A stretch of 47,709 nucleotides of DNA from Candidatus Omnitrophota bacterium (lineage in GTDB: Bacteria; Hinthialibacterota; Hinthialibacteria; Hinthialibacterales; Hinthialibacteraceae). The stretch spans positions 1-47,709 of the forward strand of contig JAFGTC010000291.1 in the NCBI GenBank assembly GCA_016934335.1, given 5' to 3'. Positions 35,256 to 46,084 of the stretch are shown here, piece by piece. Under the pieces are notes generated by a model. The model saw only the letters and a list, made by a program, of their open reading frames with translations, was not told where the DNA came from and searched no databases. A program made the position numbers and the translations under genes. Numbering within the stretch: position 1 is the stretch's first letter; each line of letters starts with the position of its first letter.

Positions 35256-35822
35256 ATGGCGATTTTATGGGTTAGACATTCTGCAGGCAGACAGGAAAAT
35301 CCCTCCTGGAGCGCGCTCTTTTTGAACGACGCCTGCTATGGGCATCCATCGAAGAGAAACGAGTCTTTCGAGATTTGCACGCAGCGCCGAACGGATGAGG
35401 CGTGCGCCTGGAGCATTAAGCGCTTCGAAATCCATGGAAGCGAAAAATGGATCCTGTTTGTCTCCCAATCGTGCGCCGCCAAGATTCGCGTCAACGCGAT
35501 TCGAACTTTTCTGGGAATCAAGGCGCTCCAACATCGCGATGAAATCTTCCTTCAAGGCTTTGGCCGTTTGTTTTTTTCGACGGACCAAAAAATAGTTCCG
35601 CAACGCTATCAAGGCGAGGGAGAGAAACTACGGTGTCCACGCTGCCAGGGCTTCATCCAACCCAATCAGTATATTGTCCGATGCCCGGCCTGTTCGTCAA
35701 TCCATCACCAGGACGCGGAAAATCAGTTGACTTGTTGGACCTATGCAGACGTGTGCGGCGCGTGCCACGACCAGCCGACTCATCTGGATGGCGAGTTCAG
35801 CTGGACGCCCGAAAATCTATAA
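35256..35822 (+). CDS. FHA-like / prokaryotic RING-like zinc protein, candidate E3 of the ubiquitin-like system
   Basis: This 188-residue protein opens the operon. Residues 1-112 are beta-rich and end with IRTFLGIKALQHRDEIFL and GRLFFSTD, resembling the last strands of an FHA-like domain. Residues 127-170 hold eight potential zinc ligands in the order Cys127, Cys130, Cys143, Cys146, His150/151, Cys160, Cys167, Cys170. This is a binuclear treble-clef layout like the Prok-RING families that accompany bacterial E1/E2 genes. By analogy it would recruit charged E2 to substrates; ligase activity is inference, and a substrate-adaptor role is the alternative. GGAG lies 10 bases before the ATG. The E1 gene follows after 20 bases. 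Confidence 0.7.
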   Translation: MAILWVRHSAGRQENPSWSALFLNDACYGHPSKRNESFEICTQRRTDEACAWSIKRFEIHGSEKWILFVSQSCAAKIRVNAIRTFLGIKALQHRDEIFLQGFGRLFFSTDQKIVPQRYQGEGEKLRCPRCQGFIQPNQYIVRCPACSSIHHQDAENQLTCWTYADVCGACHDQPTHLDGEFSWTPENL

Positions 35823-35842
35823 GGCGCGGGAAGAAAAATAAA

Positions 35843-36925
35843 ATGAAAGTGATACGAGTTATCGTAGCGGGAATGGGAAACATCGGCTCCATCCTTATCC
35901 AAATATTGGGGAAAATGCCGTTCATCCAGGAAATCATGTTGATTGATCGTGATTGCTATGAGGTGAAGAATTTGACCAGCCAACGGATCACGATGGATGC
36001 GGTGGGCCGGGAAAAAGTCTCAGTCCAAGCCGAATCTCTTCGAGCGCTGAATAAGGATTTGAAGATTTTGCCTATTCACAAAGATCTTCAACATCTTCCG
36101 GTGGGAATGCTGCGGTCGGATCTGATTTTTTCGTGCTTGGACAGTCCATGGGCGCGTCATCTGCTCATGGAATGGGCTTGGCGACTGGGAATGCCGGTCA
36201 TCGATGCTGGCGTCCGCACCGAAAACAAACTGGCGCGCGTCACATTCTATGATCCTCATCCCGCCTCGGCATGCCTGGAATGTTCATGGAGCGAGGATCA
36301 TTACAATCATGCAAGATCGGAATACCCATGTGAACAACAGCGGACGCCGTCGACGAACGGTTCGTTCTCTCTCGGCTCTTTGGCCGCATCGGTTCAAGCC
36401 ATTATCGGCGAGGAATTTTTGACCGGGAAGGCGGAACTTGGCTCGAAGAATCAAGAGATCTTGTTCAATGCCGAAAGCAAAGAGTATTTCAAAACCAATC
36501 TCCAAAGGAATCCCCACTGCCGGTTTGATCACAACATTTGGAGGATTCAATCCATACCGCGCCGTCCGCAAGACATCACCATAGGCCAATTATTTGACGA
36601 AGCCGGAATGAATAAGGGCCGCACATGGCTCCGAGTGGAGAACGCTTCCTTTTTCATGCAGGGAAGATGCCCCGCCTGCAATCACACATGGGAGATTTTT
36701 CAAGCGTCGCATCGAGATCCTCATACACAGTTGTTTTGCCCCACATGCAGAGAGAACCTCATTTCGACGTCAATCGATTATCGAGATCGCATCGAGAAGG
36801 GCGAATTCAAAGAGAAGCAGTTGCGGAAGACGGCGGCTGAAATCGGCATAACGTCCGATGACATCATTACTTTTCAGAGCGAGGACGATCAACAAGAGAT
36901 TCATGTCATGTTATCGCCAGGGTGA
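35843..36925 (+). CDS. E1-like activating enzyme (ThiF/MoeB/UBA fold) with C-terminal zinc ribbon
   Basis: The ATG at 35843 places the start directly before the Rossmann fold; an upstream in-frame start lies inside the RING gene. In the 360-residue product: VAGMGNIGS (8-16) is the ATP-binding loop, IDRDCYEVKNLTSQR (34-48) the strand-2 Asp and Arg region of E1s, and FSCLDSPWARHLL (96-108) the adenylation site. CLEC (144-147) starts a zinc site. Cys163 in EYPCEQQRTPS is the likely catalytic thiol, positioned before the GSFSLGSLAASVQA helix. C276-x2-C279 and C299-x2-C302 form a C-terminal zinc ribbon not found in ThiF or MoeB. It would adenylate the modifier encoded at 38479 and pass it to the E2. 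Confidence 0.88.
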   Translation: MKVIRVIVAGMGNIGSILIQILGKMPFIQEIMLIDRDCYEVKNLTSQRITMDAVGREKVSVQAESLRALNKDLKILPIHKDLQHLPVGMLRSDLIFSCLDSPWARHLLMEWAWRLGMPVIDAGVRTENKLARVTFYDPHPASACLECSWSEDHYNHARSEYPCEQQRTPSTNGSFSLGSLAASVQAIIGEEFLTGKAELGSKNQEILFNAESKEYFKTNLQRNPHCRFDHNIWRIQSIPRRPQDITIGQLFDEAGMNKGRTWLRVENASFFMQGRCPACNHTWEIFQASHRDPHTQLFCPTCRENLISTSIDYRDRIEKGEFKEKQLRKTAAEIGITSDDIITFQSEDDQQEIHVMLSPG

Positions 36926-37031
36926 AAAGATGAGTGATTCCTTGTTAGACGGGTTCTGAAAAATTGGGCAGCGGCAAGACGACGGTACATCTTATACGCC
37001 GATTTACACGCGAATATCGCAGGAGTTGATT

Positions 37032-37550
37032 ATGAACCCTATATTTGAATCATTTCTTCGACGCCAATATGACTGCTTGATGAAACTGGCGGAGGAGTCG
37101 GACATCGTCAAGTTGGAGCATGTGGAAGGCGAGCCGCCTCAGTTGTACATCATTCGCTTCCAATGCAAGGGTTTGATCCGGGAGAAATCAGGGGAAATCC
37201 GCGAAACACATGGATTTACCCTTGGAATTCATTTCGAGGATCAGTACCTGCGCCGTTTTACGCCAGGAAAGGTCATTTCCATTTTGGATCCTCCCAATGT
37301 ATTTCATCCCAATGTGAAATGGCCCGCGATCTGCATAGGCGGCATGTTTCCAGGTACGGGCATTACAGAGTTGATTTATCAAGCGTTTGAGATTCTGACG
37401 TACCAAAAAGCGACCGTGCGCGAGGATGACGCTTTGGATCCAATCGCGTGCCAGTATTCCAGAAATCATCAAGAACGATTTCCGATCGATCCACGGCCTC
37501 TCAAACGCAATATCGTTCCCTTAAAGATCACCAAACTAATGGGGCGTTAA
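37032..37550 (+). CDS. E2-like conjugating enzyme (UBC fold)
   Basis: AGGAG at 37021-37025 selects the ATG at 37032 over the TTG at 37026. The 172-residue product is close to a minimal UBC domain (about 150). It carries the HPN motif (His92-Pro93-Asn94) in VFHPNVKWPAICIGG and a cysteine (Cys101) seven residues after the Asn, the eukaryotic active-site spacing. ITELIYQAFEILTYQ then matches the helix after the catalytic cysteine. It should accept the modifier as a thioester from the E1 at 35843. A 106-base gap separates it from the E1 gene; the next gene starts one base after its stop. A canonical HPN plus Cys makes an active E2 likely. Confidence 0.88.
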   Translation: MNPIFESFLRRQYDCLMKLAEESDIVKLEHVEGEPPQLYIIRFQCKGLIREKSGEIRETHGFTLGIHFEDQYLRRFTPGKVISILDPPNVFHPNVKWPAICIGGMFPGTGITELIYQAFEILTYQKATVREDDALDPIACQYSRNHQERFPIDPRPLKRNIVPLKITKLMGR

Positions 37551-37551
37551 A

Positions 37552-38448
37552 ATGATTCCGACCAGGGATGTCGTTACTAAAGTGTTTCGCGATTGCGGCT
37601 GCAATCTGACAGTCATCGAGCCCGGCCGTGCATGGCAATGTCATTTATCGAATGGGGCGGATATTCCCGTTTCGGTGCATGCTGAGGATCCATGGCTTAC
37701 CATGCGTGAAAGCCGCTCATCAAATAACAGAAATATTCAATCGATGCAAGATAATCGTTTATTTCATCTATTGAGTCAAAACAGCAGTATGCATGGATGC
37801 GCCAAGTATGTCCTTGAAGAAGACGGCGGCATAAGAGTCAAAGCCGAAATTCCACTTTGGGATGGAGAGCATCTTTCAAAGGTCCTTGAGAAAAGCATCC
37901 AAGGATTGATCCACGCGATTCAAGTTGTGAGCGAGCCGCAGAGTCGTAGCAATCCACCGCAAAGACAGACGAATGGATGCCGCTTATCTAGCCGCCAACA
38001 AATCCAACTGGTTGAAACAATCGAGAGAGCAGGCGGGAAAATCATTCAAGGATCGAAAGAAGAGATATGGATCGATCTCGAATCTCAATCGACTTACGCG
38101 AAAGTGAACTGCGGCGATGAAGAAGACTTCCGCATCTATTTTGAAATCCTATCGGCGGATCATTCATCTCCAATCGTACATCGCTCGCTCATGATGTTGT
38201 TATTGATCGTGAGCAGGGTTGTGAAGATGGTTCGGGCTTTCGTGATGCGAGAGAACCGCCGCACAAAATATTATCTGGAGGCGCCGATCTGTTTTCGTCA
38301 TGATCCCCGAAATTGGGAATATGCGATCGCTTCACTCGAACTGGCCGGCCGCCTCTGCAAAAAAGAGATGATGGCGCTAAGCCGGAATGAAGCGCTTGCC
38401 AGAGATTACATGGCGTTTCAAGGCTTTGATGCAGAAGCGTCCATTTAA
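37552..38448 (+). CDS. Uncharacterised two-domain protein of the ubiquitin/Pup operon (possible YbjN/secretion-chaperone fold)
   Basis: I do not recognise the family. The 298 residues appear to contain two copies of one alpha/beta unit: a helix, three or more strands, then a long helix. The first spans about 1-125 (RAWQCHLSNGADIPVSV ... LSKVLEKSIQGLIHAI). The second spans about 147-290 (EEIWIDLESQSTYAKVN ... WEYAIASLELAGRLCKKEM). This layout resembles YbjN and type III secretion chaperone (CesT) domains, which bind unfolded peptide segments. Its start is one base after the E2 stop, so it is translated with E2. A substrate- or modifier-binding adaptor is possible; nothing catalytic is seen. 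Confidence 0.55.
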   Translation: MIPTRDVVTKVFRDCGCNLTVIEPGRAWQCHLSNGADIPVSVHAEDPWLTMRESRSSNNRNIQSMQDNRLFHLLSQNSSMHGCAKYVLEEDGGIRVKAEIPLWDGEHLSKVLEKSIQGLIHAIQVVSEPQSRSNPPQRQTNGCRLSSRQQIQLVETIERAGGKIIQGSKEEIWIDLESQSTYAKVNCGDEEDFRIYFEILSADHSSPIVHRSLMMLLLIVSRVVKMVRAFVMRENRRTKYYLEAPICFRHDPRNWEYAIASLELAGRLCKKEMMALSRNEALARDYMAFQGFDAEASI

Positions 38449-38478
38449 AAACCATGCGCGAAAGAGAGGTGAAAACCA

Positions 38479-38760
38479 ATGAGCAACGGCAGCTGCATGA
38501 AAGAAATCACAGTGCGGGATATTACAGGGCAAAAGCGATTCGCCCTGAACGATGTTCCCAAGGATTTGTCGATGGCCGAGTTTGTCAGAGGCGTGCTCGA
38601 TAATACGGATCTGCCCCAGCATGAATCTTCGAGCCAACAGCGCATCATGTATCGAGCCCGTCTGGAGCGTGAAGGACGATATCTCAATCCGGAAGAGAAT
38701 GTTGGAGTTCTTCAGGAAAAAGACGAGATCGTTCTTCAGCCCAATGTGGACGCCGGATGA
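38479..38760 (+). CDS. Ubiquitin-like modifier (beta-grasp) ending in a single glycine
   Basis: This 93-residue protein starts at ATG 38479 (AGAGAGG upstream); a start at 38497 (MKEITVRD) would give 87. The beta-grasp pattern is visible: strands KEITVRDITGQKRFAL, helix SMAEFVRGVLDN (31-42), strand RIMYRARLEREGRYLNPE, and final strand DEIVLQP. The C-terminus is NVDAG, a single Gly with Ala before it, instead of the Gly-Gly of ubiquitin, so no cleavage is needed to expose a terminal glycine. It sits between the E1/E2 genes and the JAMM peptidase gene. YukD/EsaB-type Ubls are the closest simple relatives by feel. Role as conjugated tag is inferred from context. Confidence 0.78.
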   Translation: MSNGSCMKEITVRDITGQKRFALNDVPKDLSMAEFVRGVLDNTDLPQHESSSQQRIMYRARLEREGRYLNPEENVGVLQEKDEIVLQPNVDAG

Positions 38761-38829
38761 CATCCGGGGGAGGCGCTGATCGGGATAAAGTAATTGCGCC
38801 TCCCTTTCTTCTTTTCGGGGAGCGGAAAC

Positions 38830-39843
38830 ATGATTGAAAATCACTATGATTATTGCGTTGAAATCCATTCGAAAGAGGATGGATTGATAGCGAAATGCCG
38901 AATGAATATAGATTGGGCGCCGGCCGTGGAAGATGCGCTATGGCGGGGGATATGCCTCGGCGTCTTGGATGCATTTCATCCTGATGGGGACATCGCCATA
39001 GAACCTTCTTTTGATCCAGAACTTCAAGCGCCTTATATTGCGGGATTCTCGATCCGTCTTCCTATTGCGAATCATCCGTTTTCCGTGGAATTCAATAGTC
39101 AATATTTCTGGATGCAACTTTACCCATTAACCAGTCTGCTCCATCAACAGAATCAATCCGGCGACAAAAACGCCTATTATTATCAATTTTTCGCCATGAA
39201 GAAATCGTCTTTTGTGGAAACGGAAACTAAATCGAGCATCAAAATCAAAGCGCTCGAGCCTGCGTTTTCTATGATTTCCATCGATCTGCAGTCTTACCGG
39301 GAGAAATCGGAATCCGTGGATAATCCCCAGAAAGAGTTTCCTGTTTTTATAAGAAGGACGGTTTTGGATGAATGCATCGAGCAATCGAAAGAAGCCGGTT
39401 CTCTCGAAATCGGCGGAGTCTTGCTGGGCAGCGTCGGGAAAGACAAAGACGAGACATTTTTGGAAATTACGCATCAGATTCCCGTGCAAAGCCCTGGAAC
39501 TCTGAATAAATTGGAATTTAAGCCCGAAACCTGGGAGTACATGCGATGGAAAGTTCAGCAGCGAGGCGTACAAGGAGACTGGATCGGCTGGTGGCATACG
39601 CATTCCTATCTTAAAGACGTCTGTCATAAATGTGAGAAATACAAAACCAACAGCTGCCATGCGGGATCCCTGTTTTTTTCCACCGATGACTATGCGGTTC
39701 AACGAACCGTCTTTCCACGGGCCTATTCAGTAGCTCTTGTGATTGGAGAAAGCCCCTGCGCCGGTTTGCAATATGGCCTGTGGGGCTGGAGGAAAGGGCT
39801 CATGGAGCGGCGCGGCTTTTATGTGCTCGATTCCAATGCATAG
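38830..39843 (+). CDS. JAMM/MPN (JAB) metalloprotease, probable deconjugating isopeptidase
   Basis: The ATG at 38830 (GGGGAG upstream) gives 337 residues; a TTG at 38794 is unlikely. Residues 1-165 form an unrecognised N-terminal alpha/beta domain. The C-terminal MPN domain has Glu193 in LEIGGVLLGS, His256 and His258 in IGWWHTHSY, and Ser284 with Asp287 in FFSTDDYA, the complete JAMM zinc site. Between H-x-H and the S-x-x-D there is an insert with Cys265, Cys268 and Cys276, perhaps a small metal knuckle. JAMM enzymes such as Rpn11 hydrolyse ubiquitin isopeptide bonds. Because the modifier already ends in Gly, removal of the tag from substrates is the more likely task here than precursor processing. 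Confidence 0.88.
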   Translation: MIENHYDYCVEIHSKEDGLIAKCRMNIDWAPAVEDALWRGICLGVLDAFHPDGDIAIEPSFDPELQAPYIAGFSIRLPIANHPFSVEFNSQYFWMQLYPLTSLLHQQNQSGDKNAYYYQFFAMKKSSFVETETKSSIKIKALEPAFSMISIDLQSYREKSESVDNPQKEFPVFIRRTVLDECIEQSKEAGSLEIGGVLLGSVGKDKDETFLEITHQIPVQSPGTLNKLEFKPETWEYMRWKVQQRGVQGDWIGWWHTHSYLKDVCHKCEKYKTNSCHAGSLFFSTDDYAVQRTVFPRAYSVALVIGESPCAGLQYGLWGWRKGLMERRGFYVLDSNA

Positions 39844-39868
39844 CGAATCAAAGAGAAGGAGGATTTTC

Positions 39869-41578
39869 ATGATGCCTAGAGAACGGTCTCTTTTTCATAA
39901 CTTAAAATCTATTTCGGAAATCAGCAGCCATTCAATTCCGTTGGAGGAAAAAGTCAATATTTTACGAACGGCGAGATCTCAAGGAGGAGGATTGGATGAT
40001 AACATCGACTTATTTTTATGCCAGGAAATAGAGCGCTATAAAAAAGGAATGGAAAAACTGATGGAAAAGCATGCGAAACTGAAGGAAATTTTTGATCGCA
40101 TGACGGCCCCGCCCTGGCATTTGGCCATTTTTTTACAGCGAGTGGATGTCAAAGAAGTTCCTTCCGCTCTGGTCTCCTATGATGGAAGACTTTGCATCGT
40201 TGGATTGGATGAACATGTAACTTTGGAAGACTTGCGCACCGGCGATGAAGTGTACCTGAATCAAGAACGGAACGCCATTATGGGGCGCTCGGTGGAAAAA
40301 TTATGGCCATGCGGCGATACGGCCGTGTTTGAACAATATCTTCCCGAAGGACGCGCCTTGATCAGAAAAGAGAATGATGAAGAACATGTAACCAAACTAT
40401 CCGGCCGACTCCAGGCGGATTGTTTGGAGCGAGGCGATCGAGTCTTATGGGATCGCTCGATAAAATTGGTCACGGAAAAACTCCCTGCGACTGAAAATTC
40501 GGCGATATCCGATATGTTTTTGGAGACGCCGCCGGAAGATGCTTTCGACCAAATTGGAGGGTTGGAGGAAGCGAAAGAAACGATAAAGAGAAGCATTGAA
40601 ATCCATTGCTTCCATCAAGACGCGTCTCAAAAATATCGGCTAAAGAAAAGAGGGGGCATTTTACTTATCGGCAAGCCGGGCTGCGGCAAAACCATGATGG
40701 CCCGAGCTTTGGCCAATTACCTGGGATCGATTTCACCATCCGGAAAAGCGAAATTCGCCAGCATCAAGCCCGCGGCGCTTCATTCATCCTACTATAGTCA
40801 GTCGGAAGCCAATTACAGGGCTTTGTTTACGAAGGCGAAGGAATTGGGGCGTCTTCACCCCGAAATACCCGTCATACTCTATTTTGATGAATTAGACAGC
40901 ATCGGCATGGCGCGATCTTCAGGAAATCAATTCATGCATCACATCGACGAAAGGGTTTTAACGGCCTTCGCATCCGAATTGGACGGACTCGAGGAGCGTG
41001 AAAATGTAGTCGTCGTAGGCTCGACAAACAGACCTGATAAATTGGATTCAGCCCTGATGCGTCCGGGGCGTTTCGGCGATCTGATTATCGAAGTTCCCCG
41101 ACCCAATCTTGAGGCCGCGCGCTCGATTTTCAAGAAGCACTTCAAGCCGGATGTTCCTTATGCAAGCGATGGCGGCGATATTCCTTCCGATGAAATTCGA
41201 GACGACATCATCGAGGCAGCGCTCTCTACCATTTTTTCTCCCAATGGATGCGGGCCTATCGCCTCCATCCATTTTCGCGATGGGATGTCCCGGCCTATCT
41301 ATTCATCCGATTTCATTAGCGGCGCCATAATCGCTAACATTGCCGAAACCGCCGCGCAGGAGGCCTGTTATCGTGAAATTGAGACGGGAAGCGAAGGCAT
41401 CGAATTAAAAGACGTCTTGGACGCCATCGAGGATGAGATGGAGAAGCACTTGTCATTTATCACGCCGGGGAATGCAAACGCTTATATCGACAACCTGCCT
41501 GATGACGCCCATGTCACCGGCATTGAACGCGTTAAAAGGCGCGCGAAAAAAAGTCATCGTCTGCTCAATGCCGTTTAA
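39869..41578 (+). CDS. arc: ARC/Mpa-like proteasomal AAA+ ATPase without a proteasome-docking tail
   Basis: AAGGAGG 6 bases upstream selects ATG 39869 (569 residues). After about 45 extra residues comes a coiled coil (about 52-80), then the two OB-type domains of ARC/Mpa/PAN, recognisable in VTLEDLRTGDEVYLNQERNA (118-137). The AAA+ domain has Walker A GKPGCGKT (268-275), Walker B VILYFDEL (335-342), GSTNRPD (sensor 1) and MRPGRFGD (arginine finger). The pore-loop region reads SSYYSQSEANY where ARC has the K-Y-V-G loop. The C-terminus is KKSHRLLNAV and lacks the G-Q-Y-L type motif that inserts into 20S proteasome pockets. In Mycobacterium the coiled coil binds Pup; the same is expected here. 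The Dop-like gene follows after 54 bases. Confidence 0.88.
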   Translation: MMPRERSLFHNLKSISEISSHSIPLEEKVNILRTARSQGGGLDDNIDLFLCQEIERYKKGMEKLMEKHAKLKEIFDRMTAPPWHLAIFLQRVDVKEVPSALVSYDGRLCIVGLDEHVTLEDLRTGDEVYLNQERNAIMGRSVEKLWPCGDTAVFEQYLPEGRALIRKENDEEHVTKLSGRLQADCLERGDRVLWDRSIKLVTEKLPATENSAISDMFLETPPEDAFDQIGGLEEAKETIKRSIEIHCFHQDASQKYRLKKRGGILLIGKPGCGKTMMARALANYLGSISPSGKAKFASIKPAALHSSYYSQSEANYRALFTKAKELGRLHPEIPVILYFDELDSIGMARSSGNQFMHHIDERVLTAFASELDGLEERENVVVVGSTNRPDKLDSALMRPGRFGDLIIEVPRPNLEAARSIFKKHFKPDVPYASDGGDIPSDEIRDDIIEAALSTIFSPNGCGPIASIHFRDGMSRPIYSSDFISGAIIANIAETAAQEACYREIETGSEGIELKDVLDAIEDEMEKHLSFITPGNANAYIDNLPDDAHVTGIERVKRRAKKSHRLLNAV

Positions 41579-41632
41579 TGCAGGTATTTTTGGTATTCGT
41601 GTTTATGACAGGCCCAAATTATACATATCGAG

Positions 41633-43306
41633 ATGACCATGGAAACTGATCGGTGTATGTCCAAATTGAACGGCGCGGATATTGAACTCGGCAATTATGT
41701 ACAGGGATTGCATATCAACCAGCCTACAGGGAAGATGGCGAGCCGATTGCTGTTGAAAGTAATTCAGGGGATAGAAAGACCTCCTGATTATATGACTCGC
41801 CATATATCCACCTATCCTTCTGCAAAAAACATTCTTGCCGGTGGAAATTGCGTCATCTACTCGCATGAAGCCGCGCTAAAAGAGAGCGATCATTCACAAG
41901 TAAGCCAGGACATGGGAAGAAAGTTCCTGCCCGCCAACGGAGGATGCTTCTACATCGATTTGGACCACTTGGAACTTTGTCTGCCGGAGTGCTTATCGGC
42001 GTTTGATCATGCGGCATGCTGGAATGCCATGCTCCGCATAGTAAGGAACGCCATGGATCGCGTCAATGAACAAATGCCCCGCGGCCAAAAAGTGGTGGTG
42101 CTTGTCAATAATTCCGACGGGCAATCGAATGCGTATGGATCCCACTTAAACTTTTTGATAGGTCGGAAAACCTTTCATAATCTTTTTGAACATAAGTTGC
42201 ATTTACTGCTCGCTTTAGCCTCTCATCAGATTTCCAGCATTGTATATACCGGACAAGGGAAAGTCGGAAGTGAAAACAGGCGACCCGGCGTTGATTATCA
42301 GATTTCACAGCGAGCCGACTTTTTTGAGACGATCCAAGGAATGCAAACGACTTTCAAACGCCCCATCGTGAATACGCGGGATGAAGCCTTAGCCGGCCGG
42401 ATGAATCATCAATATTCAGACGCCATGCATGAGGGAATGGCCAGGTTTCACTCGATTTTCTTTGACAATACTTTATGTCATGGCTCCAGTCTGCTGAAAA
42501 TCGGCGTCATGCAAATCTTTCTTTCCATGATTGAAAAGGAGATGATTCCTTCCGGATGGATTTTTGAAAATCCATTGTCGGCCCTGCTGCAATTCAGCCA
42601 TGATCCCTCTCTGGAAACTCGCGCGAAGCTGGTTGACGGCCAATCCGTCACCGCCGTCGAACATCAAATGATGATTCTTGAATCCGCTAAGAGATTCGTC
42701 GATCAAGGATATTGCAATGATGCAGTTCCTCATGTTCATCGCATCCTTGAACTGTGGGAAGACACCTTGAATAAACTTGAACGCCGTAATTTTTCTTCTT
42801 TGACAGGCCGAATCGATTATCTGTTAAAGTCCGCCATCATTTACAGGGCCTTCCAACAAGATTCCTCTCTGCAATGGAATTCCCCTGCAGTAAAGCGTCT
42901 GGATCTTACCTACAGCGACTTGGATTCATCACGCGGATTGTATTGGATTTATGAACGCGCGGGTCTTACGGAGCAGCTTGTTTCCGAGGATGACATCCAA
43001 CGTTTTATTCACAATCCCCCTGAAAATACGCGAGCATGGACAAGAGCCATGCTGCTGCGAAGCGTATCTTCCAAAGAAATTGACGACGTCGATTGGGATT
43101 GGATTTCATTCAAAAAAACCACCAATAAATACTGGCGGATGACGGAGCGAATTGAATTAGACAATCCACTGGGTTACACGCGCGCCGATACAGAGCCTAT
43201 TTTTCAAACCAGCCAAAGCCTCCAGGAATTGGTGGACAAATTCCAAACCCTGCAATCTGATTTGACAACCAACGAGTATGACTGTTCCAAATCGACGAAA
43301 AAATGA
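41633..43306 (+). CDS. dop: Dop-like Pup deamidase/depupylase
   Basis: This 557-residue protein belongs to the glutamine-synthetase-fold Pup enzymes. It has NNSDGQSNAYGSHLNFLIGR (159-178; Dop usually S-H-E-N), YTGQGKVG, QISQRADFFE and TTFKRPIVNTRDE, the last almost identical to actinobacterial Dop. The catalytic region YIDLDHLELCLPE has Asp109 with D-x2-H-x-E spacing as in Dop; PafA has one more residue. A Dop-loop-sized segment (about 25-95) lies before it. NPPENTRAWTRAMLLRS is the C-terminal domain motif. The metal-binding G-x-E-x-E near the N-terminus is changed to GADIE, so one Glu is Asp, and activity could be altered. The start is uncertain among three nearby ATGs. pup follows after 33 bases. 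Confidence 0.85.
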   Translation: MTMETDRCMSKLNGADIELGNYVQGLHINQPTGKMASRLLLKVIQGIERPPDYMTRHISTYPSAKNILAGGNCVIYSHEAALKESDHSQVSQDMGRKFLPANGGCFYIDLDHLELCLPECLSAFDHAACWNAMLRIVRNAMDRVNEQMPRGQKVVVLVNNSDGQSNAYGSHLNFLIGRKTFHNLFEHKLHLLLALASHQISSIVYTGQGKVGSENRRPGVDYQISQRADFFETIQGMQTTFKRPIVNTRDEALAGRMNHQYSDAMHEGMARFHSIFFDNTLCHGSSLLKIGVMQIFLSMIEKEMIPSGWIFENPLSALLQFSHDPSLETRAKLVDGQSVTAVEHQMMILESAKRFVDQGYCNDAVPHVHRILELWEDTLNKLERRNFSSLTGRIDYLLKSAIIYRAFQQDSSLQWNSPAVKRLDLTYSDLDSSRGLYWIYERAGLTEQLVSEDDIQRFIHNPPENTRAWTRAMLLRSVSSKEIDDVDWDWISFKKTTNKYWRMTERIELDNPLGYTRADTEPIFQTSQSLQELVDKFQTLQSDLTTNEYDCSKSTKK

Positions 43307-43323
43307 AACTGATTTTTCAGTTT
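43306..43323 (+). promoter_or_regulatory. Small hairpin between the dop stop and the pup ribosome binding site
   Basis: AAACTG (43306-43311) pairs with CAGTTT (43318-43323) around a T-rich loop, ending five bases before GGAGA (43328-43332). It may slow readthrough or tune pup translation; it is short and could be chance. Confidence 0.3.
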
Positions 43324-43339
43324 GCATGGAGACAATATC

Positions 43340-43531
43340 ATGAAAACCCGATATCGAATCAATTCCGAAGATGAATACGAAGAAAGAAGCGAGCTCAATG
43401 AAGGCGGCAATGATGACTTGCATGAGCAATCGAAGAATTTATTAGATGCATGCGACGCCATTATCCAAGAAGTGCTTCATGAAGACAGCGAATTCTATCT
43501 ATCTCAAATCACTCAGAGGGGCGGTCAATGA
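43340..43531 (+). CDS. pup: Pup (prokaryotic ubiquitin-like protein; UBact type) ending in Gly-Gly-Gln
   Basis: The ATG at 43340 follows GGAGA with a 7-base gap; a TTG at 43322 is an alternative. The 63-residue protein is nearly the length of mycobacterial Pup (64). It is acidic and probably disordered at the N-terminus (NSEDEYEERSELNEGGNDD), then has the ATPase-binding helix region LHEQSKNLLDACDAIIQEVL and the terminus QRGGQ. Pup that ends in Gln must be deamidated by Dop to a C-terminal Glu before PafA attaches it to substrate lysines. The stop overlaps the next start in an ATGA junction (43528-43531), so Pup and the ligase are translationally coupled. It lies between dop-like and pafA-like genes. 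Identification is firm despite small size. Confidence 0.93.
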   Translation: MKTRYRINSEDEYEERSELNEGGNDDLHEQSKNLLDACDAIIQEVLHEDSEFYLSQITQRGGQ

Positions 43532-45102
43532 ACTTTCATGATGCCAAAGTGTTTGTGCTTTTCGGATTGGAGACGGAATACGGCTTCGCCGTCGCTTCTG
43601 CCAAAACCTCATTGGAAAGAAGAAAATATTCTTCTTCGCTATTGCTGAACGCGGCCATGGAGAAATTAGCGCATCTGCCCAGCGGCGGATCAACAGGCGT
43701 GTTTCTCCCGAATGGGAGCCGTTTTTATATCGACCAGGGAGATCATCCGGAAATAAGCACCCCCGAAACCGCCAATCCCTGGGATGCTGTGCGCTATCAA
43801 TTAGCGGGAGATTTGATTTTATTGAGATTAAAGGAGGCGGTCGAAGAACTCTTGGATGAAAAGGAGGAGGTGGTTTTATTCAAGGGGAATGTATGTTATC
43901 GCAGCAAATCAACGTGGGGCTCTCATGAATCTTATGTACACCGGATTCATCCGAGTCAAATCGCAGAGCAGATCATTCCACATCTAGCGTCAAGAATTAT
44001 ATACACCGGCGCGGGAGGATTCATCAATACATCAACCGGCTTGACTTTCACGTTGAGTCCACGGGTATGGCATCTCGAACATGAGACATCCGAGTCATCC
44101 ACGCATAACCGAGCCATCTTTCATACGAAGAACGAACCTTTGTGTTCGCATGGATGGAATCGTCTTCATCTTTTATGCGGCGAAAGCCAGTGTTCGATCA
44201 AGGGAGCCTGGCTGAGAATGGCGACGACGGCGTTAATCACGGCCTTGATTGATCATGGCCGATGTCCCGGAGAGGAAATGCAATTGCGAAGACCCATCGA
44301 AGCCATGCGCCGTTTTTCTCTGGATCCATTCTGCAAGACCGATGTTCCGTCAAGAGCAGGAAGGAAGTTGAACGCCATTCAAATTCAACGGCATTATCTC
44401 GAAGAGGTTAAAAAATGCATGGAATGCAAATGGATGCCGGATTGGGCTGAAATCGTCTGTCATGAGTGGGATGAGATGCTGGCGCGATTGGAAGACTCCC
44501 CTGACTCCGTGTGTCAAACGATCGATTGGGCGATTAAATATGTCATGTATACGGACTATTTGGAGAGGAATAACTTGTCTTGGCGTCAGGCTGATGAGAT
44601 AACTCATGCTCTAAAATCGATGCCTGCATGGAAGCCTCCAAGAACGATGTCAACAAGTATGTTTGCATCCTGTTTTCAGCGAGATGATTCTGACGCCAAG
44701 CGAAGGCATATGACAATCCAGCAAAATCTTCTCAAAAACATCGGCATGTCGGAAGCGGAATGGAATCATTTTTCGAACATCCGATCCAAAATGTTCGATA
44801 TCGATGCACAGTTTTCAATTCTGGGGAACAAGGGAATATTTAACTTACTCGACCGTCAAGGTCTTTTGGATCATGGAATTCAAGGCGTCAATCGGATTGA
44901 GGAGGCCGCTGAGCGGCCCCCCGATTATGGGCGAGCTAAATTGAGAGGATCCTCTATATCCCATCTATCAAAAGGCAATCAAAAACAATATATTTGTTTT
45001 TGGGATTCCATTTACAATCTGACAGAGAGGACTTTACTCGATCTTTCCGATCCATTTTCGGAGCAGGAACAATGGATCGCCTTCGAGTCACGTCATGTTT
45101 AA
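43528..45102 (+). CDS. pafA: PafA-like Pup ligase
   Basis: This 524-residue protein retains GLETEYGF (13-20), the intact metal-binding G-x-E-x-E of Pup ligases. NGSRFYIDQGDHPEISTPE (62-80) has catalytic Asp69 with D-x3-H-P-E spacing as in PafA. No Dop loop is present between these motifs. Further family motifs are WGSHESY (130-136), NRAIFHTKNEPL and NRLHLLCGES (211-220). The C-terminal RPPDYGRAKLRGSSI matches the Pup-ligase C-terminal domain. PafA phosphorylates the C-terminal Glu of Pup with ATP and links it to a substrate lysine. It overlaps pup by four bases. In actinobacteria prcB and prcA lie between pup and pafA; here they are missing. Dop activity cannot be wholly excluded from sequence. 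Confidence 0.85.
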   Translation: MNFHDAKVFVLFGLETEYGFAVASAKTSLERRKYSSSLLLNAAMEKLAHLPSGGSTGVFLPNGSRFYIDQGDHPEISTPETANPWDAVRYQLAGDLILLRLKEAVEELLDEKEEVVLFKGNVCYRSKSTWGSHESYVHRIHPSQIAEQIIPHLASRIIYTGAGGFINTSTGLTFTLSPRVWHLEHETSESSTHNRAIFHTKNEPLCSHGWNRLHLLCGESQCSIKGAWLRMATTALITALIDHGRCPGEEMQLRRPIEAMRRFSLDPFCKTDVPSRAGRKLNAIQIQRHYLEEVKKCMECKWMPDWAEIVCHEWDEMLARLEDSPDSVCQTIDWAIKYVMYTDYLERNNLSWRQADEITHALKSMPAWKPPRTMSTSMFASCFQRDDSDAKRRHMTIQQNLLKNIGMSEAEWNHFSNIRSKMFDIDAQFSILGNKGIFNLLDRQGLLDHGIQGVNRIEEAAERPPDYGRAKLRGSSISHLSKGNQKQYICFWDSIYNLTERTLLDLSDPFSEQEQWIAFESRHV

Positions 45103-45196
45103 AAACTCGAACAACAATGAAATCGCATCCTGTGCCTCGCATTGAATCGTACGCATTGGGGCCATTGAACTTACGGTATTCGCCGCGTAAGATTCA

Positions 45197-45520
45197 ATGA
45201 TGCTCAAGATCATCAAATTTTGCTGTGGTTGGCTCTCCCGAAAGTTCAATATCGTCGCGAATTTGACCGCTTAGAACGTCGCACTGCGCCGCCAACTTAT
45301 CGTATTGAAAATGAATCAAAAGGTCCCTGCTTTGGAAGGGCGAGATCGATTGTTCTGGGTGGTCATGTACCATGTCGGATGGCGAGACGCACTTCTGATT
45401 GTGCAACCGGATGCCGTCGTACGCTGACATAAAAGGGCCTTCAAACTCTACTGGCGTTGGAAGTTCCAGACGAGCCGACGTGGAAGACCTGCGCTGGATT
45501 CCGATGTGAGGGCGCTGATT
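45197..45520 (+). pseudogene. Degraded integrase-core transposase fragment with in-frame stops
   Basis: Reading from ATG 45197 in one frame gives NVALRRQLIVLKMNQKVPAL, then RDRLFWVVMYHV, LLIVQPDAVVR, FKLYWRWK and RRGRPALDSDVRAL, a pattern typical of the N-terminal part of rve-type (IS3/IS481-like) transposases. The frame is broken by TAG after NLTA and by TGA where the family has Trp after VVR. The rve catalytic domain is missing because the copy is cut at about 45520 by another element. Inactive. Confidence 0.7.
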
Positions 45521-45640
45521 CTCAATGCTCCAATGACTTCGAACCGCCTTGGCGAACTCCTCTACATCAACCCAGTCATCCGCGCCGCAGATCACTGCAC
45601 AGATCGTAATAGTAATGATGTCCAGCAATTTATGCGATGT
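45518..45640 (-). mobile_element. ISAs1-family transposase remnant with internal deletion
   Basis: On the minus strand, HKLLDIITITICAVICGADD and WVDVEEFAKA are the N-terminal signature of ISAs1 transposases. The frame then jumps directly to VRSHWSIENQ, which belongs near the C-terminus of the family. About 200 or more residues including the DDE catalytic core are deleted. The remnant abuts the integrase fragment, so at least two insertions and a deletion happened here. Confidence 0.7.
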
Positions 45641-46084
45641 TTTGTTGATAAAACTTGCTGAAATTCGAGCGTTGACTGCTGGTACTACATCTATTCAAGG
45701 CATCAATTAAAAGACGCCTCGGGCGATTTTGTCATTTTAAGGGAGATTCAAGAAACAGAGCGTCCCTATAGTGGGAGATGTTCCTGATTGTGCAACAAAA
45801 GGTGACAAAAAGAATACTTCCATCTGTTTGAGTGTATGGATACAGCCAATCAGTTGAAAAACAAAAAATCGCCTTTATGAGCGAAAGTAGATGAATCCCA
45901 GTAAAAAAACACATGCCCCCTCATTACATATGAGAAAATAGAAGAAACTTGGTGTTCATGGAAAACAGTCTTTAGGGTACAAACAATTGACAGAAATCAA
46001 TATGGCATAAAGAATAAATAGGCCGTACTCGAGAAATTCGATCTTTGTAACCGAAACATAACCGATGCATAGGAGAATCCAGCG
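45641..46084. other. Intergenic region before the rhamnosidase gene; possible promoter
   Basis: No gene or recognisable repeat. TTGACA at 45987-45992 with AAGAAT (46010-46015) 17 bases later is a possible promoter about 70 bases before the GH78 start. Confidence 0.4.

Follow-up and report, generated by a model that had tools for sequence, protein, structure and literature searches.

The DNA analysed here, referred to as the window, is a stretch of 47,709 nucleotides of contig JAFGTC010000291.1 from a Candidatus Omnitrophota bacterium, and it contains ten tightly packed open reading frames (ORFs) on the plus strand (35256–45102), which encode a ubiquitin-type conjugation cascade and a pupylation cassette with a single proteasome-type ATPase between them (Table 1). 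An earlier note, made from the sequence alone, had placed ten plus-strand genes at these positions, with gaps of 1–106 bases and one overlap, and both this layout and its interpretation (gene identities, two complete cascades, one ATPase) are supported by the present analysis. The mechanical ORF starts produce false overlaps, and likely starts were used instead for the E1, E2 (at 37032), JAMM, ARC and Pup genes. The intergenic gaps are then 20, 106, 1, 30, 69, 25, 54 and 33 bases in order, and the single remaining overlap, of 4 bases, lies between Pup and PafA.

Table 1. Genes of the two-tag operon, with their coordinates in the window and the basis of each assignment
Gene	Product	Position	Strand	Basis
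1	FHA-like domain and RING, candidate E3	35256..35822	+	Prok-RING_1, zinc ligands, AlphaFold/Foldseek
2	E1-type adenylating enzyme	35843..36925	+	ThiF; start moved from 35633
3	E2-type enzyme, HPN...Cys101	37032..37550	+	Profile against solved structures, motif
4	Conserved unknown, predicted tandem chaperone/YbjN fold	37552..38448	+	AlphaFold/Foldseek
5	Ubiquitin-like protein (Ubl), 93 aa, ends -AG	38479..38760	+	Weak profile matches, C-terminal motif
6	JAMM metallopeptidase, N-terminal extension	38830..39843	+	JAB; start moved from 38794
7	ARC/Mpa-type AAA ATPase, tandem OB domains	39869..41578	+	AAA, OB, pup_AAA; start moved from 39743
8	Dop-like deamidase/depupylase	41633..43306	+	Pup_ligase, Dop structures
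9	Pup, 63 aa, ends RGGQ	43340..43531	+	Pup Pfam; start moved from 43322
10	PafA-like Pup ligase	43528..45102	+	Pup_ligase

The ten-gene two-tag operon of the window is confirmed as real, and its order is beyond chance. A scan of named genomes, seeded on Dop alone, gave 24 loci to which profiles for all ten genes were then applied, and 20 of these (the hybrid loci) carry both halves in the order of the window. All ten genes lie on the contig in 13 of them (L068, L070–L073, L075, L076, L078–L080, L085, L087 and L089), with L087 counted despite broken frames, L072 with a permuted E1, and L080 taken as a contig of genome G304, while seven (L069, L074, L082–L084, L086 and L091) are cut by contig ends. 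The remaining four loci are L081 (Pup, PafA, Dop), L088 (ARC, Dop), L090 (conventional, with 20S genes) and L077, where a RING gene and a fragment of E1 immediately precede Dop, an arrangement that a deletion of the middle could have produced. The ten-gene profile counts excluded 17 locus-gene pairs (fragments or non-hybrids) and L036, with length limits applied. The hybrid loci are labelled with seven phyla, namely Verrucomicrobiota (5), Acidobacteriota (4), Planctomycetota (4), Armatimonadota (3), Deltaproteobacteria (2, mapped to Myxococcota), Hydrogenedentota (1) and Gemmatimonadota (1), and these labels depend on binning, as all 24 loci come from metagenome-assembled genomes (MAGs). Proteins among the hybrid loci often share only 20–45% identity. 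An assembly accident was rejected as an explanation of the combined order, which occurs on many independent contigs in many bins.

Family PF03136 is present in 30 of 386 genomes drawn across bacteria, two of which (G304 and G112) share the genes and order of the window, and in one of 14 genomes of the window's own phylum, namely the window's own. The earlier note had made its claim hang on whether any relative keeps the combined order, and such relatives are found both in the Dop-seeded set and in these two genomes. A Dop profile applied to 392 genomes of one phylum gave 10 matches; the five strongest were already in the Dop-seeded set (three hybrid, L077 and L081 not), and the five weaker comprise the hybrid loci L128 and L129, the non-hybrid L127, L130, which is cut by a contig end, and L131, which contains only PafA and a weak ATPase. 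In the planctomycete loci L128 and L129 the order recurs in strongly diverged genes, and Pup was not recognised. Viral contigs scanned with PafA alone gave 15 pattern matches and no relative, while tblastn against plasmids retrieved 2 records for Dop and 98 for E1, none of the latter covering 80% of the query.

The ubiquitin-type half begins with a candidate E3 (gene 1), which is predicted to contain an FHA-like domain and a RING. This protein matches Prok-RING_1 in Pfam at E = 4e-4, below the curated cut-off, the eight Cys/His zinc ligands of its RING are invariant in 16 of 16 sequences, and its AlphaFold model (predicted local distance difference test, pLDDT, 83.8) resembles, by Foldseek, both FHA domains and RINGs of E3s (best E = 5.9e-3). 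Of the usual FHA motifs, with their phosphothreonine-binding Arg and Ser, only Asn-Gly stands out in the gene 1 alignment. The E1 matches ThiF in Pfam (E = 1.9e-25), its profile is nearest to MoeB (6e-22), and it contains a C-terminal CxxC...CxxC domain and a candidate thioester cysteine, Cys163, kept in 16 of 16 sequences (alignment A16, which excludes the permuted E1 of L072). That E1 (L072:3753–5570) is circularly permuted within one stop-free frame: the region C-terminal to the candidate catalytic Cys, together with the CxxC domain, stands first, and the nucleotide-binding half comes last. It is either an assembly error or a permutant that occurs naturally.

The E2, Ubl and gene 4 proteins of the window have no Pfam match, and the E2 and Ubl assignments therefore rest on weak profile matches and motifs. 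A 19-row E2 profile was compared with solved structures, and E2s make up 12 of the 16 matches listed (best E = 0.04), the other four being HIV capsid and alkaline phosphatase chains; the HPN...C motif is conserved, with Cys101 in 19 of 19 rows, His92 in 18 and Asn94 in 17. For the 20-row Ubl profile, five of the six matches listed are beta-grasp proteins, namely MoaD, SAMP1 (three times) and one Ubl domain (E 0.2–0.7), so that a beta-grasp fold is predicted only weakly. The C-terminal -AG of the Ubl is invariant in 20/20 rows of alignment A14 (truncated Ubl of L087 excluded), and conservation ends there, as ten sequences terminate at this point and ten carry 1–12 more variable residues. Such a pattern would be expected if JAMM exposed the glycine, and this enzyme presumably removes the tail. 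The JAMM peptidase (JAB in Pfam, E = 6.7e-6; profile nearest to RPN11, E = 8e-5) keeps Glu193, His256, His258, Ser284 and Asp287 in all 20 sequences, and its gene overlaps that of ARC in 11 of 20 loci (heuristic starts). Gene 4 is predicted (AlphaFold, pLDDT 87.0) to encode two tandem copies of the type III secretion chaperone/YbjN fold; its Foldseek matches include SicP, SycH, Spa15, YbjN and others, the good ones covering about 130 of 298 residues, and two of 19 relatives match YbjN in Pfam (best E = 0.009).

In the Pup half, the Dop gene product matches Pup_ligase (Pfam, E = 3.4e-90) and solved Dop structures (8e-58). The PafA gene product also matches Pup_ligase (E = 3.9e-83), and it matches solved structures of Dop (1e-44) better than those of PafA (1e-36), so its role as a ligase rests on other features: it has no insert of Dop-loop length, and the region after S[QP]R, which discriminates Dop from PafA according to the available text of a published study (PMC7947786), is unlike that of Dop. 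Residues Glu15 and Glu17 of PafA are kept in 15/15 sequences and Asp69 in 14/15, while Asp16, Glu18 and Asp109 of Dop are kept in 19/19. The hybrid Dops possess GxDxE instead of GxExE (Asp in 19/19 by column, 18/19 by pattern), and at the same motif position 46 other Dop/PafA rows show 34 Glu, 4 Asp and 8 unmatched. Judged by the motif, this Asp appears to correspond to Glu8 of Acidothermus Dop, which is given as a magnesium ligand in the available text of PMC8599861. The C-terminal extension of about 180–340 residues seen in PafA of L070, L071, L072, L080 and L085 is absent in the window; that of L080 weakly matches TPR (8e-5, below cut-off), and it is possible that this extension recruits substrates.

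Pup of the window matches the Pup family in Pfam at E = 0.005, below the cut-off. The last residue is Q or E in each of the 16 hybrid Pups read, with a GGQ or GGE end in 12 and PPAQ, GAQ, SGQ or SGE in the rest; in L071, L073 and L084 the Pup was picked among small ORFs by C-terminus and position, and in L084 also by profile. As the matches to Prok-RING_1, to the Pup family of Pfam and to the NCBIfam models pup_AAA, Dop and PafA are below curated cut-offs, these proteins are regarded as divergent members.

The ATPase matches AAA (8e-31), the proteasomal-ATPase domains OB_C (1.5e-12) and OB_N (1.4e-4), and pup_AAA of NCBIfam (1.6e-86, below the curated cut-off). Among the hybrid ATPases, the Walker A Lys is present in 22/22 and the Walker B Glu in 21/22, and the arginine finger, with two usual positions, varies at one of them (Arg in 12/22). 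The gene identities proposed in the earlier note are borne out by Pfam and NCBIfam matches, with weak profiles and motifs for E2 and Ubl, as is the completeness of both cascades around a single ATPase, and the catalytic residues are kept across relatives.

The ten-gene unit contains no 20S gene, and no protease gene except that of JAMM. According to the available text of PMC8223512, Mpa docks through a C-terminal GQYL. The window ATPase ends in ...HRLLNAV and other hybrid ATPases in, for example, HRYLHAA; a -YL end occurs in 0/22 hybrid ATPases, compared with 12 of 17 non-hybrid controls (four others end in -II and one in neither), and in many hybrid ATPases an RYL-like stretch survives a few residues short of the C-terminus. 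Matches to PF00227 in the window's genome (94% complete) consist of HslV, encoded next to HslU, and of a weak hit within an unrelated protein. A search with PF00227 found no 20S-type subunit in this genome, nor in 16 of the 20 hybrid genomes; ten of the 20 have no PF00227 protein at all, HslV included, and in six the match is HslV (accompanied in one genome by a protein that is Anbu-like by eye) or is weak and unclassified. Only HslV is present in G112, whose stated completeness is 100%. Docking of the ATPase on HslV was rejected, as half of the hybrid genomes lack any PF00227 protein. Neither the absence of a 20S core nor the altered ATPase end is mentioned in the earlier note.

Other pupylation loci were met in the same scans. 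The ATPases of the non-hybrid loci L143 (G304:C2:68000-82000), L144, L147 and L149 end in -NII or -SII, which may be an alternative 20S docking end. Genomes G052, G197 and G329 each contain four Dop/PafA-type genes and two separate 20S-type subunit pairs, and each has two Pup-proteasome loci. Locus L090 (6069–12618), on a contig binned as Woesearchaeota (an archaeon), encodes Dop, an ATPase ending in KEYL, PafA and two 20S-type subunits, and represents either a transfer into an archaeon or a binning error.

The two halves appear, from sequence distances, to have been inherited together. Distances are correlated across the halves for E1-PafA (0.75, n = 13), E1-Dop (0.70, n = 15) and E2-PafA (0.59, n = 13), and the correlation within the Pup half, Dop-PafA (0.76, n = 13), is about equal to that of E1-PafA; the Mantel test excluded L087, a near copy of L076, and the outlier L084. 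In a tree built by a quick method, the hybrid Dops form one clade (Shimodaira-Hasegawa-like approximate likelihood ratio test, SH-aLRT, 96) and the hybrid PafAs another (98), with L081 inside both, and L084 and other planctomycete genes lie just outside the hybrid clades on long branches, so that the deep place of L084 and L117–L120 is unsure. The tree rows of L074, L082 and L086 labelled as hybrid PafA are Dop, as these contigs end before PafA.

The halves also occur separately. A strong E2 match is present in three of the 30 Pup-containing genomes and a marginal one (40 residues) in two, the other 25 having none. At E up to 1e-5, the E2 profile matches five of the 386 genomes, namely three hybrids and G149 and G296, both without PF03136. 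The E2-like protein of G149 has no Cys at the expected place (by eye), while G296 (L155:9767-11394) encodes a Ubl ending in -AG, JAMM and E2, its fetched stretch being free of Pup genes, and could plausibly resemble the ancestor from which the Ubl half came. Lysine is absent from the Ubl core in L073 and L082 and from Pup in L076 and L089 (the truncated L087 being uncounted), so that neither tag needs to be joined to the other through a lysine. These cases led to the rejection of a general link in which Pup would sit on lysines of Ubl, or Ubl on lysines of Pup, and attachment at the N-terminal amine could still occur.

Upstream of the operon lies a divergent minus-strand gene, and downstream a transposase remnant (DDE_Tnp_1_assoc, E = 5e-10; 45194–45694, minus strand) is followed by an alpha-L-rhamnosidase gene cut by the contig end. 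This remnant, just 3' of the operon, fits recent mobility, as the 13 other genomes of the window's phylum lack PF03136. Terminator-like sites (14 versus 12.7 in shuffles, none inside the JAMM-ARC gap) and promoter-like matches (14 versus 15.6) are at chance level. No other gene family recurs beside the ten-gene unit: in the neighbouring ORFs (69 of 102 scanned), no Pfam family matches more than two, among the matches listed (25 of 103 families), and no PADLOC family more than three.

Several known systems resemble the two-tag operon in part. UBact, the Gram-negative variant of Pup, has its own gene order including prcA/prcB. With the Pup-proteasome system the window shares a Pup with C-terminal Q/E, PafA, Dop and an Mpa/ARC ATPase with tandem OB domains, but its unit lacks the 20S subunits and the GQYL end of the ATPase. 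The lid and base of the eukaryotic 26S proteasome offer a comparison in how the system may work, as in both an AAA unfoldase stands beside an Rpn11-like JAMM and a ubiquitin-type tag, whereas the window has no 20S core, an ATPase of ARC/Mpa type and a second, unrelated tag. RING-containing bacterial Ubl systems were reportedly described by Burroughs et al. in 2011, and the RING would be common to such operons and the window.

By its gene content, the Pup half has the anatomy of a proteasome-less pupylation locus. Such loci in corynebacteria, as described in the available text of PMC3511204 and PMC8223512, keep the ATPase, have no 20S genes and no docking motif, and place pup directly before pafA. 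The window agrees in its ATPase, Dop, pup directly before pafA, and lack of 20S genes and docking motif, but its operon additionally encodes a complete Ubl cascade, including RING, JAMM and gene 4, and its Dop and PafA are very divergent, Dop having GxDxE. Separate E1, E2, JAMM and Ubl are shared with the bacterial Ubl operons Bil and Bub, although the Ubl of the window is a short single-domain protein ending in -AG, in contrast to the two-domain BilA (available text of PMC11354881), and its Ubl half is linked to ATPase, Dop, Pup and PafA. The FtsH-ternary Ubl system is presented as a Ubl-E2 fusion with vWA, MoxR and FtsH in the available text of Kaur et al. (PMC7159879), whereas Ubl and E2 are separate genes here and none of the ten encodes vWA, MoxR or FtsH.

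The coupling was noticed before, in 2020, as the earlier note had allowed that genome surveys might have done: one sentence in the available text of Kaur et al. (eLife; PMC7159879) mentions that some Thermofonsia and planctomycetes couple a Ubl-conjugation system to Pup conjugation. This is the same pairing, and its full order is seen here in the planctomycete loci L128 and L129, as well as in the named Planctomycetota L078, L079, L089 and L084 (cut at its 5' end). To that sentence the present analysis adds the gene order, an account of the proteasome, motif analysis and six more labelled phyla. A fuller description of, or an experiment on, the Ubl/Pup combination was not found in the main text of open-licence papers and of a few preprints, a coverage which makes this negative no proof of absence.

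The most likely reading, held with about even confidence, is that the ten genes encode a single, integrated machinery for two-tag protein remodelling that works without its own 20S core. In its Ubl branch, JAMM would trim the tailed Ubl to -AG, E1 would adenylate it and transfer it in thioester linkage to E2, which the FHA-like/RING protein would recruit to substrates. In the Pup branch, Dop would deamidate Pup-Q to Pup-E, PafA would ligate Pup to lysines, and Dop would remove it. The ARC-type ring would grip disordered Pup as a handle and unfold or extract the substrate, with the Rpn11-like JAMM clearing Ubl at the ATPase, and gene 4, with its chaperone-like fold, may hold extended polypeptide. 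JAMM cleavage, the E1-E2 relay, the Dop and PafA reactions and the unfolding of pupylated protein are assigned by analogy with the respective families; we only infer that both tags converge on the ATPase, that the ATPase acts without any protease, and that gene 4 has such a role. A more specific version, put forward tentatively, is a dual key in which the folded Ubl attached by E1, E2 and RING would select the substrate, Pup attached by PafA to the same substrate would serve as the initiation tail for the ATPase, and JAMM would strip Ubl during translocation. If this is true, two chemically unrelated tags act in series on one client of a machine without a 20S core.

Several observations weigh against an integrated, core-less system and bear on its rivals. 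The named relatives are all MAGs of unstated completeness, and the Foldseek fold matches of genes 1 and 4 are all without an E-value below 1e-3. The distance correlations include shared species history, having no species-tree control, and p exceeds 0.05 in 7 of 45 pairs (RING-E2, RING-Ubl, RING-PafA, E2-JAMM, E2-Pup, JAMM-Pup and JAMM-PafA). Moreover, L081, L088 and L127 have hybrid-type (or near) Pup-half genes without adjoining Ubl genes, which indicates that the Pup half can stand alone. The weak correlations across the halves and the solitary halves would suit two independent tagging systems in one regulon, which would mark different substrates for one ATPase or leave the ATPase to Pup alone, their linkage reflecting common regulation or joint transfer. 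This alternative also draws on the 27 of 30 Pup-containing genomes without a strong E2 match, on G296 with its Ubl, JAMM and E2 in a genome without PF03136, and on the fact that neither tag needs the other's lysine. It is nevertheless rather unlikely, as the order is fixed despite the low protein identity, gene overlaps span the JAMM-ARC boundary, and the E1-PafA correlation matches that of Dop-PafA.

Four of the 20 hybrid genomes (G390, G398, G400 and G403) do encode a 20S-type subunit, on another contig and beside separate Dop/PafA-like genes, and the -NII-ending ATPases of L143 and L147 come from loci with a 20S-type subunit, so that the lack of -YL weakens but does not exclude docking. These points, together with the RYL-like stretch near the end of many hybrid ATPases, fit a degradation system whose ATPase feeds a protease (another peptidase, or a 20S core whose genes lie elsewhere) and in which Ubl and Pup would serve as alternative degrons, and the available text of Kaur et al. 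interprets the coupling as favouring a connection between Ubl and the degradation of targets (PMC7159879). A degradation system is improbable, since a 20S-type subunit is missing from 16 of the hybrid genomes and from that of the window, ten have no PF00227 protein, and JAMM is the sole protease encoded in the operon. A conflict or anti-phage system, tagging invader or host proteins, is very improbable: the unit has no toxin, nuclease or effector gene, no PADLOC family matches more than three of the neighbouring ORFs scanned, and RING, E2, Ubl, gene 4, Dop, Pup and PafA have no PADLOC match, although E1 and JAMM match the PADLOC E1-E2 and JAB models (best E = 1.8e-10 and 3.3e-8) and the spread over phyla is patchy. 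In the available text, Kaur et al. assign related Ubl systems to conflict systems (PMC7159879), and Bil operons are placed among immune operons, with Bub operons given as putative and not shown to protect (PMC13373217).

On the reading as one integrated system, two tagging chemistries of unrelated kind seem to have merged into a single machine. Ubiquitin-type and Pup-type tagging, textbook convergent solutions, are joined here in a single conserved module built around one unfoldase, and most of the genomes concerned have no 20S core. The module makes testable both the role of the proteasomal ATPase in pupylation systems without a proteasome and the way in which an AAA motor can work together with a JAMM enzyme and a ubiquitin-type tag outside the 26S proteasome, for which the natural -AG ends, the natural tails and the lysine-free tags are clean reagents.

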